Source: Terriglobia bacterium (GTDB lineage Bacteria; Acidobacteriota; Terriglobia; Bryobacterales; Bryobacteraceae). Taken from it: a DNA stretch of 64,000 nucleotides. Under the pieces are notes generated by a model. The model worked only from the letters and a program-made list of their open reading frames with translations. It did not search any database and had not been told where the DNA came from. Position 1 is the first letter of the stretch, and every line of letters begins with the position of its first letter. A program made the translations under genes and the position numbers. Below, piece by piece: positions 2,640 through 6,876 of the stretch. The stretch spans positions 1 to 64,000 of the forward strand of contig JANXYJ010000201.1 of the NCBI GenBank assembly GCA_025350105.1, given 5' to 3'.

Positions 2640-3209
2640 GTGTCAGAACCAGCATTCGCAGTGGACCAATTGGCGCACGCCGAGCACGCTCCGTCCAGTC
2701 ACGAGAACGCCGAAAAAGTTCAGCAGGTGCGCGAAATTCTTTTCGGACCCGACCTGCGGCAGATCGATCAGAATCTGAATCAGATTGGCGAGATGGTGCG
2801 GAAGCAGAGCGCGGATTTGCGTGAGGAAATGCGCCGCCGCCTGGATACCTTCGAGACGCTGTTTAAGAGCGAAATCGAAACCCTGCAAGGGCAAGTTCGC
2901 CGGGAGCGGGACGAGCGGGTTGCCGCCGATTCGCAGCTTTCCAAGAACTCACATGAAGCGGGCGAGGGCACGCACCGGCGTCTGGCCGATTACAGCGATC
3001 AGTTTGCGTCGGCGCAAACCGCGTTGCGCGGCGAAATGCTGGCGCAGATGAAAACGCTGTTCGACGAAATGACGGCGCGCGATGAGCGTTGGACCAAGCT
3101 GATTGAATCGCGGCTGGGCGCGCTCGGTCAACAAAAAACCGATCGCACGGCGCTGGCTACCTTGCTATCGGAGATGGCCGCGCGTTTGGGCCAGGAATCG
3201 CAGAGTTAG
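2640..3209 (+). CDS. Coiled-coil protein, first gene of the GTPase/phosphorelay operon
   Basis: A 189-residue soluble protein with a GTG start preceded by GGGGAGGAAA. After a short His/Ala-rich leader, residues ~25-185 are almost entirely charged amphipathic helix (Glu, Arg, Gln, Leu heptads such as DLREEMRRRLDTFETLFKSE). There is no signal peptide or membrane span. It lies 29 bases upstream of the OmpA-domain gene, and the next four genes overlap or nearly touch, so all five are probably one transcript. A scaffold or adaptor role for the GTPase module is a guess from position; the family is not recognised. Confidence 0.75.
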   Translation: MSEPAFAVDQLAHAEHAPSSHENAEKVQQVREILFGPDLRQIDQNLNQIGEMVRKQSADLREEMRRRLDTFETLFKSEIETLQGQVRRERDERVAADSQLSKNSHEAGEGTHRRLADYSDQFASAQTALRGEMLAQMKTLFDEMTARDERWTKLIESRLGALGQQKTDRTALATLLSEMAARLGQESQS

Positions 3210-3238: not shown

Positions 3239-4777
3239 GTGGCGAAACCCGCGCCCTGGCGGCAGGCTGGCGTCGTGAAAACAAACGTGGCCGGATCAAA
3301 CGACGATCCCAACGACGAACTCGCCGAGCTGCGCAGGCTGCTAGACATCCCGGATTCGGTAGAGTGGGCGGAGCTGCGTTCCTTCTGGCTGGACCGCGAA
3401 CGCCGCGCCCGCGATTTGGGCGAGCGCCTGCCGGATGCGGTGCGTCTACGCACTGAATCGGATAACCAGTTACGGGACGCGCTGCAGCCGGTAATCGAAG
3501 AGGGCCTGAAGCTTTCGGTACGGCGCAATCCGCAGGTGATCACCGAAGCGCTGTTTCCGCTGATTGGCACGATGGTGCGCCGGTCTGTGGCGGCATCGCT
3601 GGCGCAATTGAACGAGAACGTAAATCAAACGTTGGAATCGTCTTTGTCGTTGCGATCGGTGGCCTGGCGCTGGGAAGCTTCGCGGCGCGGGGTTCCGTTT
3701 TCGCGCGTGTTACTGGAACGCAGCCTGCGTTTCCGCGTCGAACAAGCGTTTCTGATCGATCGCCGCGCGGGCCTGCTGCTGCTGCACCGCACCTCGCAGG
3801 ACTCCGTGGTACGAGATCCCACTGTGATCTCGGGCATGTTGACGGCGATTCAGGACTTCGTGCAGGATTCCTTCAGCGGACCGGAGGAAATGCTGGAGTC
3901 CGTGCGCATGGGTGAGCATACGGTGTGGATCAACTCCGGCCCGCGTGCGGTGTTGACGTGCGTGGTGCGCGGTGCGGTTCCGCCCAGCTTCAAGACGGTG
4001 ATGGAAGAGTCGCTGGGCGAAATTCACCGGGAGTTTGCCAAGGAACTGGAGGAATTCAGCGGCGATACGGAAGCCTTCGCCGGTGCCGCGCCGGTGCTGG
4101 ATGCGTGTTTGCTGGGCCAAGCACCGAGGGTTTTGCATAAAGCGGGCATGCGTTGGCTGTGGGCCACGGCGAGTTTGCTCCTGCTAGCCGCGGCCGCGTT
4201 CGGGATTTGGCGCTGGACGCAAAACCGTCACTTCGAACAGTATGTCCAAAGCTTGCGATCGCAACCGGGCATTGTGGTGAACCAGGCGGAGCGCGTCGGC
4301 GGCAAGTGGCACGTGAAGGGTCTGCGCGATCCGATGGCCGTTGATCCGCTGAGCCTGGCTGGATCGGCTGAAGTCGATCCAGCGCAGTTGGAGATGGAGA
4401 TGACGCCCTATCTTTCGCCGGACTATTCGCCACAACGGGCCGCGGCGGAAGCGGCGCAGCGCGTGCAAAGCCGGGTGCTGACGTATGCAACCAATTCCGC
4501 CAAGGTTCCCGATTCTGCGATTGATTTTCTGGCGGCCGATATCCGGCTGCTGGACGATTTCGCCACGCTGGCCAATCGCTCCGCTTTGATCCACGTGACC
4601 GGAAGCGCTGATACGGTGGGCGATGCGGCGCACAACAACAACCTGGCCACCCAGAGGGCCGAAAATGTGGTGGACGCGCTTACGGCGTCCGGACTGCCAG
4701 CGGCGCTGTTCGATGTGCGGGTAAGGCCGGGCGTGGCGCGCTTCGTCAATTTCGAAGTCGAGATGACCGCGAAGTGA
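3239..4777 (+). CDS. Membrane protein with cytoplasmic roadblock/longin-like domain and C-terminal OmpA-like domain
   Basis: 512 residues, GTG start behind AAGGAG. Residues 1-160 are helical and charged, predicted cytoplasmic. Residues ~168-285 (AFLIDRRAGLLLLHR, then ISGMLTAIQDFVQDSF, then GPRAVLTCVVRG) follow the hydrophobic pattern of roadblock/longin-like folds, which commonly partner small GTPases. This is my reading, not a search result. Residues 306-325 form one transmembrane helix. Residues ~400-512 resemble an OmpA/MotB peptidoglycan-binding domain (VTGSADTVGDAAHN, LATQRAENVVDAL). The architecture would tie a cytoplasmic GTPase to the cell wall. Its stop overlaps the start of the GTPase gene by four bases, implying translational coupling. 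Confidence 0.75.
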   Translation: MAKPAPWRQAGVVKTNVAGSNDDPNDELAELRRLLDIPDSVEWAELRSFWLDRERRARDLGERLPDAVRLRTESDNQLRDALQPVIEEGLKLSVRRNPQVITEALFPLIGTMVRRSVAASLAQLNENVNQTLESSLSLRSVAWRWEASRRGVPFSRVLLERSLRFRVEQAFLIDRRAGLLLLHRTSQDSVVRDPTVISGMLTAIQDFVQDSFSGPEEMLESVRMGEHTVWINSGPRAVLTCVVRGAVPPSFKTVMEESLGEIHREFAKELEEFSGDTEAFAGAAPVLDACLLGQAPRVLHKAGMRWLWATASLLLLAAAAFGIWRWTQNRHFEQYVQSLRSQPGIVVNQAERVGGKWHVKGLRDPMAVDPLSLAGSAEVDPAQLEMEMTPYLSPDYSPQRAAAEAAQRVQSRVLTYATNSAKVPDSAIDFLAADIRLLDDFATLANRSALIHVTGSADTVGDAAHNNNLATQRAENVVDALTASGLPAALFDVRVRPGVARFVNFEVEMTAK

Positions 4778-5313
4778 CAGAAGCGGTGAAAGCGATCCAG
4801 AAAAAAGTCTGCCTGCTGGGGTCTTTTGGCGTGGGCAAAACCAGCTTGGTGCGGCGTTTTGTGCAAGGCATTTTCGACGAGCGCTATCTGACCACCTTGG
4901 GCGTGAAGATCGACAAAAAGGAATTTACCCTGCCCGACAAAAAGGCGATGATCAACCTGGTGCTGTGGGATTTGGCGGGGGAGGATTTTCGCGCGCCGGT
5001 GCAGCTTGCTTACGTGCGCGGCGCGGCGGCATGCCTGTACGTGGCGGATGTGACCCGGCCGGAAACTTTGACCACTGCGCAAACCATTGCGGCGCGAGTG
5101 CGCGAGCAAGTGGGACCGCTGCCGTTTGCGTTGGCCCTGAATAAGACTGATTTGACTGCGGGCGATCCGGCTTACGGCGATCAAAAACGGGACGCCACCT
5201 CCGGGATTCTCACCCAGATGACCACGGAAGGTTGGACGGTTACGCAAACCAGTGCAAAAACGGGGGCGGGCGTAGAGGATGCCTTCGCGGCGCTGGCGTT
5301 GCGCTTGCTCTGA
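4774..5313 (+). CDS. Ras/Rab-like small GTPase
   Basis: 179 residues. All G boxes are present: P-loop GSFGVGKTS (16-24), switch I threonines TTLGVK (40-45), G3 WDLAGE (65-70), G4 NKTD (123-126) and G5 SAK (160-162). The position equivalent to Ras Gln61 is Glu70, as in several bacterial Ras-superfamily proteins I recall, so intrinsic hydrolysis may need a partner. There is no C-terminal lipidation motif. The start is a GTG inside GTGA, overlapping the upstream OmpA/roadblock-like gene. That partner and the two downstream phosphorelay genes suggest a polarity, surface-sensing or envelope-signalling switch, by analogy with MglA/MglB. It is not MglA itself, since the G3 box differs. Confidence 0.9.
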   Translation: MTEAVKAIQKKVCLLGSFGVGKTSLVRRFVQGIFDERYLTTLGVKIDKKEFTLPDKKAMINLVLWDLAGEDFRAPVQLAYVRGAAACLYVADVTRPETLTTAQTIAARVREQVGPLPFALALNKTDLTAGDPAYGDQKRDATSGILTQMTTEGWTVTQTSAKTGAGVEDAFAALALRLL

Positions 5314-5328
5314 CGGCGGCGATCGAGA

Positions 5329-6876
5329 ATGGCAACAATGGACTGGCTTTATCCAATTCTGGACATGGCGGTGCTGGAAACGGTGGTGCCGGAGGCGGCT
5401 CCGTTCCTCTGGCAGCTAAAGTCGCCCGCTCCGGATTGGTTTCGCTGGCAAACGGCGGAATCGGTTTCCATGGAGGCTTTGGCCGAAGAATTCGCGTTCC
5501 TGGATTTCTTTGTCCCGGAAGCCTTTCGCCTGCGGGAGACAAGCGGATTGCAACGGGTACGCAGCGAAATTTGGACGCAAGTAAATGCCCAGGGCGCGGA
5601 AAATGCCTTTCGGGCGGAAATGATTTTTGGCCCCTCCACGGTATTGGTGATTCAGCAAGTGAACCAGGATCACGCGGAGATTCGCACGGCGCATCAATGG
5701 GGGAGGGATTGGGCACTGGCCAGCCAGCGCCTGGATCATCGCCGCGAAAATGTGGAAGTGATGGGCCGGCACAAGGACGAATTTTTGTCCAGCATGAGCC
5801 ACGAACTACGTACGCCGCTCAATTCCATCGTCGGATTCGCCACACTGTTGGGACAGCGCAAAGGCGGCGAACTCACGGAACGGCAAGCGGGCTTTGTCAA
5901 CAATATTCACACGGCGTCCCGGCATTTGCTGGCCTTGATCAACGAACTGCTGGACATTGCCAAAATCGACGCCGGACGGCTGGAACTGCACAGCGAACTG
6001 TTTCCCGCCGAGGACTGCGTAAACGAAGTTCTTACCGTGCTGATGCCGCAAGCGAGCGTAAAAAGCCTGCAGATTAAAACCGTTGGCGCCCAGTTGAAGG
6101 TATTTTGCGACCGGTTGCGGCTGAAACAAATTCTGTACAACTTGTTGAGTAACGCCATTAAGTTTTCGCCGGTTGGAGCGCAGGTGACGATTGCATTTGA
6201 GGAAAAGCAAAATGCCGTGTGCATGACCGTGAGCGACCAGGGACCTGGAATCGCCAAGGCAGAGCAGGCAAGAATCTTCGAACCGTTTCAGAGCCGGAAT
6301 GGAAGAAAAGAAGAAGGCACGGGGCTGGGCTTGGCCATCACGCGGCGACTGGTGGAGGCGCACGGCGGGACCATTACGTTGGAGAGCACGCCGCAACAGG
6401 GCTCGCGCTTTCAGATGACGCTGCCGCGGCCCGGTTCCTCGGCCGTACCTTCTATCTCTGCTGGCGGCATCGCGGTGATTGAGGGCGAGCCGGGAACGGG
6501 ATTGTTAATCCGCTCCATCCTGGAACCCGAACACCAGGTGACGGTGTACTCCTCATGGGAGAGCGCACGGCAGGGGTTTGCCACAGCGGCGCCCGGCCTG
6601 GTGTTCGTGGATCACCATCTGGCCGACGCCGAAAGCAGCGAGGTGTTGGCGCAGATCCGCCAACAGAAATCCTTGACCCAGATGTTTGTGACGGTACTGA
6701 CGCGGGAGCCGGATGAGGGACCAGCGGGCTTTGACCAGGTGATTCACAAACCCTTGGGAGACGGCCGCGCGATTGAGCAATGCGTGGAACATGCGATGAA
6801 ACGGCGATTGGAAACCTTGCCTGACGCCGCGATTGAAAACACTGCGCTGGAAACGCCCAAAGGAGTTTCCGTTTGA
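5329..6876 (+). CDS. Soluble hybrid histidine kinase
   Basis: 515 residues. Residues 1-140 are an unassigned N-terminal sensory region without membrane spans. HisKA carries the phosphoacceptor in SSMSHELRTPLN (His158). The ATPase domain shows NLLSNAIKFSP (N box), DQGPGIA (G1) and GTGLGLAI (G2). From ~375 to 490 lies a receiver domain with EGE as the acidic pair, Asp in LVFVDHH and Lys in VIHKP. Histidine and receiver aspartate allow internal phosphotransfer. The gene starts 15 bases after the GTPase stop, and its own stop overlaps the next start, so it is in the operon. A cytoplasmic sensor next to a GTPase suggests it may read GTPase state; that is inference. Confidence 0.88.
   Translation: MATMDWLYPILDMAVLETVVPEAAPFLWQLKSPAPDWFRWQTAESVSMEALAEEFAFLDFFVPEAFRLRETSGLQRVRSEIWTQVNAQGAENAFRAEMIFGPSTVLVIQQVNQDHAEIRTAHQWGRDWALASQRLDHRRENVEVMGRHKDEFLSSMSHELRTPLNSIVGFATLLGQRKGGELTERQAGFVNNIHTASRHLLALINELLDIAKIDAGRLELHSELFPAEDCVNEVLTVLMPQASVKSLQIKTVGAQLKVFCDRLRLKQILYNLLSNAIKFSPVGAQVTIAFEEKQNAVCMTVSDQGPGIAKAEQARIFEPFQSRNGRKEEGTGLGLAITRRLVEAHGGTITLESTPQQGSRFQMTLPRPGSSAVPSISAGGIAVIEGEPGTGLLIRSILEPEHQVTVYSSWESARQGFATAAPGLVFVDHHLADAESSEVLAQIRQQKSLTQMFVTVLTREPDEGPAGFDQVIHKPLGDGRAIEQCVEHAMKRRLETLPDAAIENTALETPKGVSV

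Follow-up and report, generated by a model that had tools for sequence, protein, structure and literature searches.

The gene at positions 3239–4777 of the window, the whole 64,000-nucleotide stretch of DNA analysed here, probably encodes the membrane protein of a Group 1 Rup system, one whose predicted longin domain would form a GTPase platform and whose OmpA end would hold the cell wall, while the GTPase encoded next to it would gate a kinase acting on an NtrC-type regulator. Group 1 Rup operons were described as encoding a coiled-coil protein, a protein made of a domain of unknown function (DUF), a transmembrane segment and an OmpA domain, a Rab-like GTPase and an output kinase; the GTPases have no catalytic Gln, an invariant Gln of the output proteins might act in trans, and no member had been tested as of that description (Wuichet and Sogaard-Andersen, 2014, PMC4316618). 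The window carries the same elements, namely a coiled-coil gene, a DUF-TM-OmpA gene, a Gln-less Ras-superfamily GTPase and an output protein with the N-terminal invariant Gln, and nothing essential differs. As judged from sequence, it is a Group 1 Rup locus in all features examined, namely the GTPase motifs, the neighbouring genes and the invariant Gln. The architecture that the sequence-only reading had presented as new was already published in 2014 (PMC4316618). Additional to the published description are a fifth gene, of the NtrC type, that follows the other four, and the phylum itself, as Acidobacteriota are missing from the published Group 1 Rup list. The new element is the predicted assignment, from structure models, of the conserved Group 1 Rup DUF to the longin fold, by which a longin and a Rab-like GTPase would share one bacterial operon. 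The open-access literature searched yielded no laboratory work on Group 1 Rup systems since 2014 and no paper naming a longin in them.

The ORF check of the window returned gene 2 as a 512-codon frame with a GTG start and an AGGAG motif seven bases 5′ of it, and the gene is the second of five on the same strand (Table 1), with 4-base overlaps between genes 2 and 3 and between genes 4 and 5. When an alignment of 21 members served as query against species genomes, at least 457 relatives of gene 2 were detected across several phyla, and the frame is thus not a chance ORF. The best 80 of the 457 relatives belonged to Acidobacteriota, Nostocales cyanobacteria, Nitrospira, Gemmatimonadota, delta- and gammaproteobacteria and others. 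To judge from its membrane gene, the four-gene system thus has a wide distribution. Plasmid-borne relatives were found in Mesorhizobium, Rhizobium and Nostoc. Close to home, homologues covering most of residues 20–400 with E below 1e-56 were present in 20 other genomes out of 396 from the phylum, OmpA-only matches being counted apart. The 22 further genomes from its own genus had none. Because the gene is missing from these 22 genomes yet present across the phylum, it has either been lost often or been acquired here. Gene 5 was retained downstream in several Bryobacterales loci, and a window scan for sigma-54 promoters yielded no excess of sites over shuffles. A tandem repeat of 5.7 copies of an 18-base unit lies immediately upstream of the operon at 2412–2513.

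Table 1. Coordinates of the five genes and of the predicted parts of the gene 2 protein in the window.
Feature	Positions	Strand	Basis
Gene 1, 189 aa, coiled-coil-like	2640..3209	+	Judged by eye; match to the published operon
Gene 2, 512 aa, predicted neck, longin, TM, periplasmic module and OmpA	3239..4777	+	ORF, Pfam, alignment, models, hydropathy
Helical neck, residues ~20–160 (about 140 residues)	3296..3718	+	AlphaFold2 secondary structure
Predicted longin domain, residues 164–296	3728..4126	+	Two AlphaFold models vs. solved structures
Transmembrane segment, residues 306–324	4154..4210	+	Hydropathy
Short periplasmic beta-module with GLRDP motif, residues ~343–392	4265..4414	+	21-member alignment and model
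OmpA domain, residues 398–512	4430..4774	+	Pfam, fold match, residue counts
Asp458 of the OmpA domain	4610–4612	+	Alignment with OmpA TDxxG
Arg473 of the OmpA domain	4655–4657	+	Alignment with OmpA RA
Gene 3, Rab-like (Rup-type) GTPase	4774..5313	+	Pfam, G motifs, best solved relatives
Gene 4, histidine kinase with weak C-terminal receiver match	5329..6876	+	Pfam
Gene 5, NtrC-type response regulator: receiver, sigma-54 AAA+, helix-turn-helix	6873..8297	+	Pfam

Hydropathy analysis of the gene 2 protein identified one hydrophobic segment and no N-terminal signal peptide, and the sole Pfam match above the cut-off was OmpA at residues 435–489 (31.8 bits vs. a cut-off of 27.2), in agreement with the single span and outside OmpA end proposed from the sequence alone. 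The inside-to-outside layout of that reading also held overall, although the helical neck and the periplasmic beta-module had been missed. The neck ahead of the longin part is conserved among members, with W143-R144 invariant. The spacer between membrane and wall is highly variable in length: the Mesorhizobium and Rhizobium members (L031 5848–8913 and L032 5830–8895) carry four near-identical tandem periplasmic modules of ~113 aa each, and the window protein has only part of one such module. A BON-like identity of this module was indicated in a single one of 21 members (E 0.08) and is not claimed.

The fold of the cytoplasmic domain was evaluated with two AlphaFold2 models, one from 21 sequences (model 1, mean pLDDT 75.7) and one of residues 20–300 alone from 74 sequences (model 2, mean pLDDT 76.9), two rows from plasmid records having been left out of the folding alignment. 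In model 2, pLDDT was ~75–97 through most of the longin region and dropped to about 66 in a single loop. Both models gave the order strand-strand-helix-strand-strand-strand-helix-helix (in model 1, E166–174, E180–185, H194–211, E221–224, E227–233, E237–244, H249–271 and H277–291), which is the order of longins, where a second C-terminal helix is present and an N-terminal helix absent; the alignments with Sec22b and Fuzzy extend over this order. Model 1 matched Sec22b (1ifq) with a Z of 15.0 and an rmsd of 2.5 over 126 aligned residues, followed by Vamp7 (Z 13.7), Fuzzy (13.6) and Ykt6 (13.5), and no roadblock structure appeared among its top 50 structural matches. Consistently, the best longin matches of model 2 were Fuzzy (7q3d, Z 13.6), Vamp7 (4afi, 13.3), Sec22b (13.3) and TRAPP (13.2). 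The most conserved segments of the domain were the first strand (RVEQvFLIh, mean identity 0.93) and the first longin helix (SgMLtAIqdFvxDS, 0.80); a helix face conserved in this way would fit an interface for dimerisation or for the GTPase.

A roadblock domain of the MglB type, acting as GAP or co-GEF for the GTPase and resembling a longin through an artefact of modelling, is an unlikely alternative that draws on the same models. MglB chains stood high in the Foldseek list of model 2 and aligned with it at Z 11.3–11.4, and Pfam Robl_LC7, which gave no match for the window protein, touched 1 of 76 members weakly (E 0.0056). However, MglB and likewise the other roadblocks scored below the longins, MglB by about 2 Z units, and the longin alignments ran through the second C-terminal helix to model-2 residue 276, whereas that of MglB (1j3w, Z 11.4) covered about 107 residues and left the last helix unmatched. 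The MglB alignments started at the first strand of MglB and ended at 253, so that the N-terminal helix of MglB is unmatched as well. The cytoplasmic domain is thus predicted by the models to be a longin first and a roadblock second. Since neither the Pfam scan of 76 members nor the PDB profile search gave a longin match, the assignment rests on predicted structure, and because sequence profiles do not reach the domain, descent shared with eukaryotic longins is not established. The domain noted earlier as roadblock/longin-like at residues 168–285 accordingly stands as a member of the longin/roadblock superfamily, with its limits moved to 164–296 and its nearest fold being longin rather than MglB; the profile searches, which were silent, and the models, which gave longin, pointed to no unrelated fold. 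Pfam matches of the N-terminal region to Ku_PK_bind, BID and OSCP were weak and scattered, and were set aside.

Conservation of the neighbourhood was then compared over 104 related loci. A gene 1 homologue lay upstream in 98 of them, contig ends accounting for 4 of the 6 exceptions, and a gene 3 homologue lay directly downstream in 93; neither was found at any of 9 control loci with OmpA-only proteins. Loci with no adjacent GTPase included L006, L013, L043, L091 and L111, while L040 and L047 had a GTPase some kilobases upstream instead. Close cyanobacterial and Mesorhizobium relatives carry the same operon, and in Mesorhizobium the neighbour is annotated 'Rab family GTPase', with an adenylate cyclase after it. 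The cytoplasmic part and the GTPase were correlated in their pairwise identities (Mantel r 0.87, null maximum 0.21), a co-varying divergence that any co-inherited operon would also be expected to show.

These data bear on the reading of the longin-type domain as a PAS- or profilin-like sensor or scaffold that makes no contact with the GTPase and links the wall directly to the kinase, which we consider quite improbable. The longin fold falls within a broader PAS-like class, many of whose members bind ligands (PMC3521125, PMC4917890), and the membrane protein is kept without an adjacent GTPase in a few loci. After the coiled-coil gene, however, adjacency of the GTPase is the most constant feature of the locus. 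Moreover, longin and roadblock folds are recurrent partners of small GTPases.

In OmpA and Pal domains, an Asp/Arg pair binds diaminopimelate. The OmpA end of model 1 matched Pal and OmpA domains with Z 12–13, and both residues, Asp458 and Arg473, are present in the window protein, for which wall anchoring is likely on the strength of these residues. An alignment count over 102 members showed that the Arg473 equivalent was kept in all 102. The Asp458 equivalent was retained by 11 of 11 Nitrospira members and 7 of 39 cyanobacterial ones, and by 50 of 52 members from the remaining groups. In most cyanobacterial members (e.g., L051, L056 and L061), Asn or Ser replaces the Asp and the Arg is intact. 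Since the Asp is gone in most of the cyanobacterial members, wall binding is not a general function of the protein group, and the wall-binding end proposed earlier is likely for the window protein but does not extend to the group. That the protein is mainly a structural tether from inner membrane to wall, with signalling genes merely sharing the operon, would fit the intact Asp/Arg of the window protein but is very improbable, as the cytoplasmic part is better conserved than the OmpA part in the member alignments, the Asp is so often absent in cyanobacteria, and the relative at locus L016 lacks an OmpA domain.

Pfam places the gene 3 product among the Ras-family GTPases. Its G1 (GSFGVGKTS), G2 (switch I T), G4 (NKTD) and G5 (SAK) motifs are intact, while its G3 reads WDLAGE, with Glu70 where Ras has Gln61, so the catalytic Gln is missing; Glu occupied this position in 83 of 94 GTPases. 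The best solved relatives of gene 3 were Rab5, Rab22, Rab23 and an Asgard Rab. The N-terminal domain of gene 4 (~1–140) bears Gln123 (5695–5697), in a column that was 99% Gln in the alignment of the output proteins, which combine this common N-terminal domain with varied effectors (kinases, sigma-54 activators and an HD domain).

Taken as the Group 1 Rup membrane component, the gene 2 protein may bind the GTPase, act on it as GAP or GEF and tether it to the wall. The longin, probably dimeric and perhaps joined by the coiled-coil protein, would serve at the inner membrane as a platform that docks and regulates the GTPase, while the OmpA end would hold the complex on peptidoglycan and may report the state of the wall or envelope across the membrane. 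The GTPase, without a catalytic Gln of its own, would meet the N-terminal domain of the kinase, where Gln123 may complete hydrolysis in trans, so that the state of the GTPase would gate the kinase. The kinase would in turn drive the NtrC regulator, and thereby sigma-54 transcription. The predicted longin assignment thus gives the protein a testable role, as an inner-membrane GTPase platform with an outer end able to sense or hold the wall.

Eukaryotic longins include regulators of Rabs (Fuzzy-Inturned for Rab23, Mon1-Ccz1 for Ypt7 and TRAPP for Ypt1) and the SNAREs Sec22b, Vamp7 and Ykt6. The window domain is similar to them in its predicted fold, which matches along almost its entire length, and in the neighbouring GTPase gene, whose nearest solved structures are Rabs, and differs in having no sequence-level match and in being part of a bacterial, membrane-spanning protein with a putative wall-binding end. 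Similar to MglA/MglB of Myxococcus and Thermus, a small GTPase and a partner of the roadblock/longin superfamily are encoded close by. However, MglB is a small cytoplasmic protein of roadblock topology, and MglA belongs to the other prokaryotic GTPase family; the GTPase of the window is Rab-like rather than MglA. Actinobacterial conservons (CvnA-D) likewise encode a kinase, a roadblock-type protein, an accessory protein and a small GTPase per operon (PMC4316618), but their membrane protein is the kinase and a wall-binding domain is not described for them, while in the window the putative longin protein spans the membrane.

Longins are usually treated as eukaryotic or Asgard-archaeal domains derived from roadblocks. 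Because the GTPase is nearest to Rabs and longins are usually considered eukaryotic or Asgard, the predicted pair bears on the origin of the Rab-longin partnership. A derivation of longins from roadblock regulators of GTPases has been described (PMC3521125), longins are numerous in Asgard archaea, and a review table marks 'Longin/Roadblock' as present in bacteria with the two not separated (PMC4917890). In a tree of 2014, Rab, Ran, Ras and Rho were nearest to the Group 1 Rup GTPases and transfer from bacteria was proposed (PMC4316618); a later paper found Rups to be the closest group and left the relationship open. It is conceivable, at a low probability, that longin and Rab-like GTPase form an ancient bacterial operonic pair and that a relative of this pair was the source of the eukaryotic Rab-longin trafficking partnership, in which case a longin next door would have allowed the partner to travel together with the GTPase switch.

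Some further observations were made on roadblock and effector proteins. The genome of the window encodes one ordinary stand-alone roadblock protein (L114 1471–1836), with no recognisable GTPase adjoining it in the examined stretch. A second type of output protein, bearing a cyclase, resembles the common N-terminal domain by eye. In cyanobacteria, a separate 130-aa protein is encoded between GTPase and kinase (L051 9253–9654, L052 9260–9649 and L058 9107–9514) and is similar to the N-terminal region of the cyclase from Mesorhizobium, which suggests two effector types per operon.
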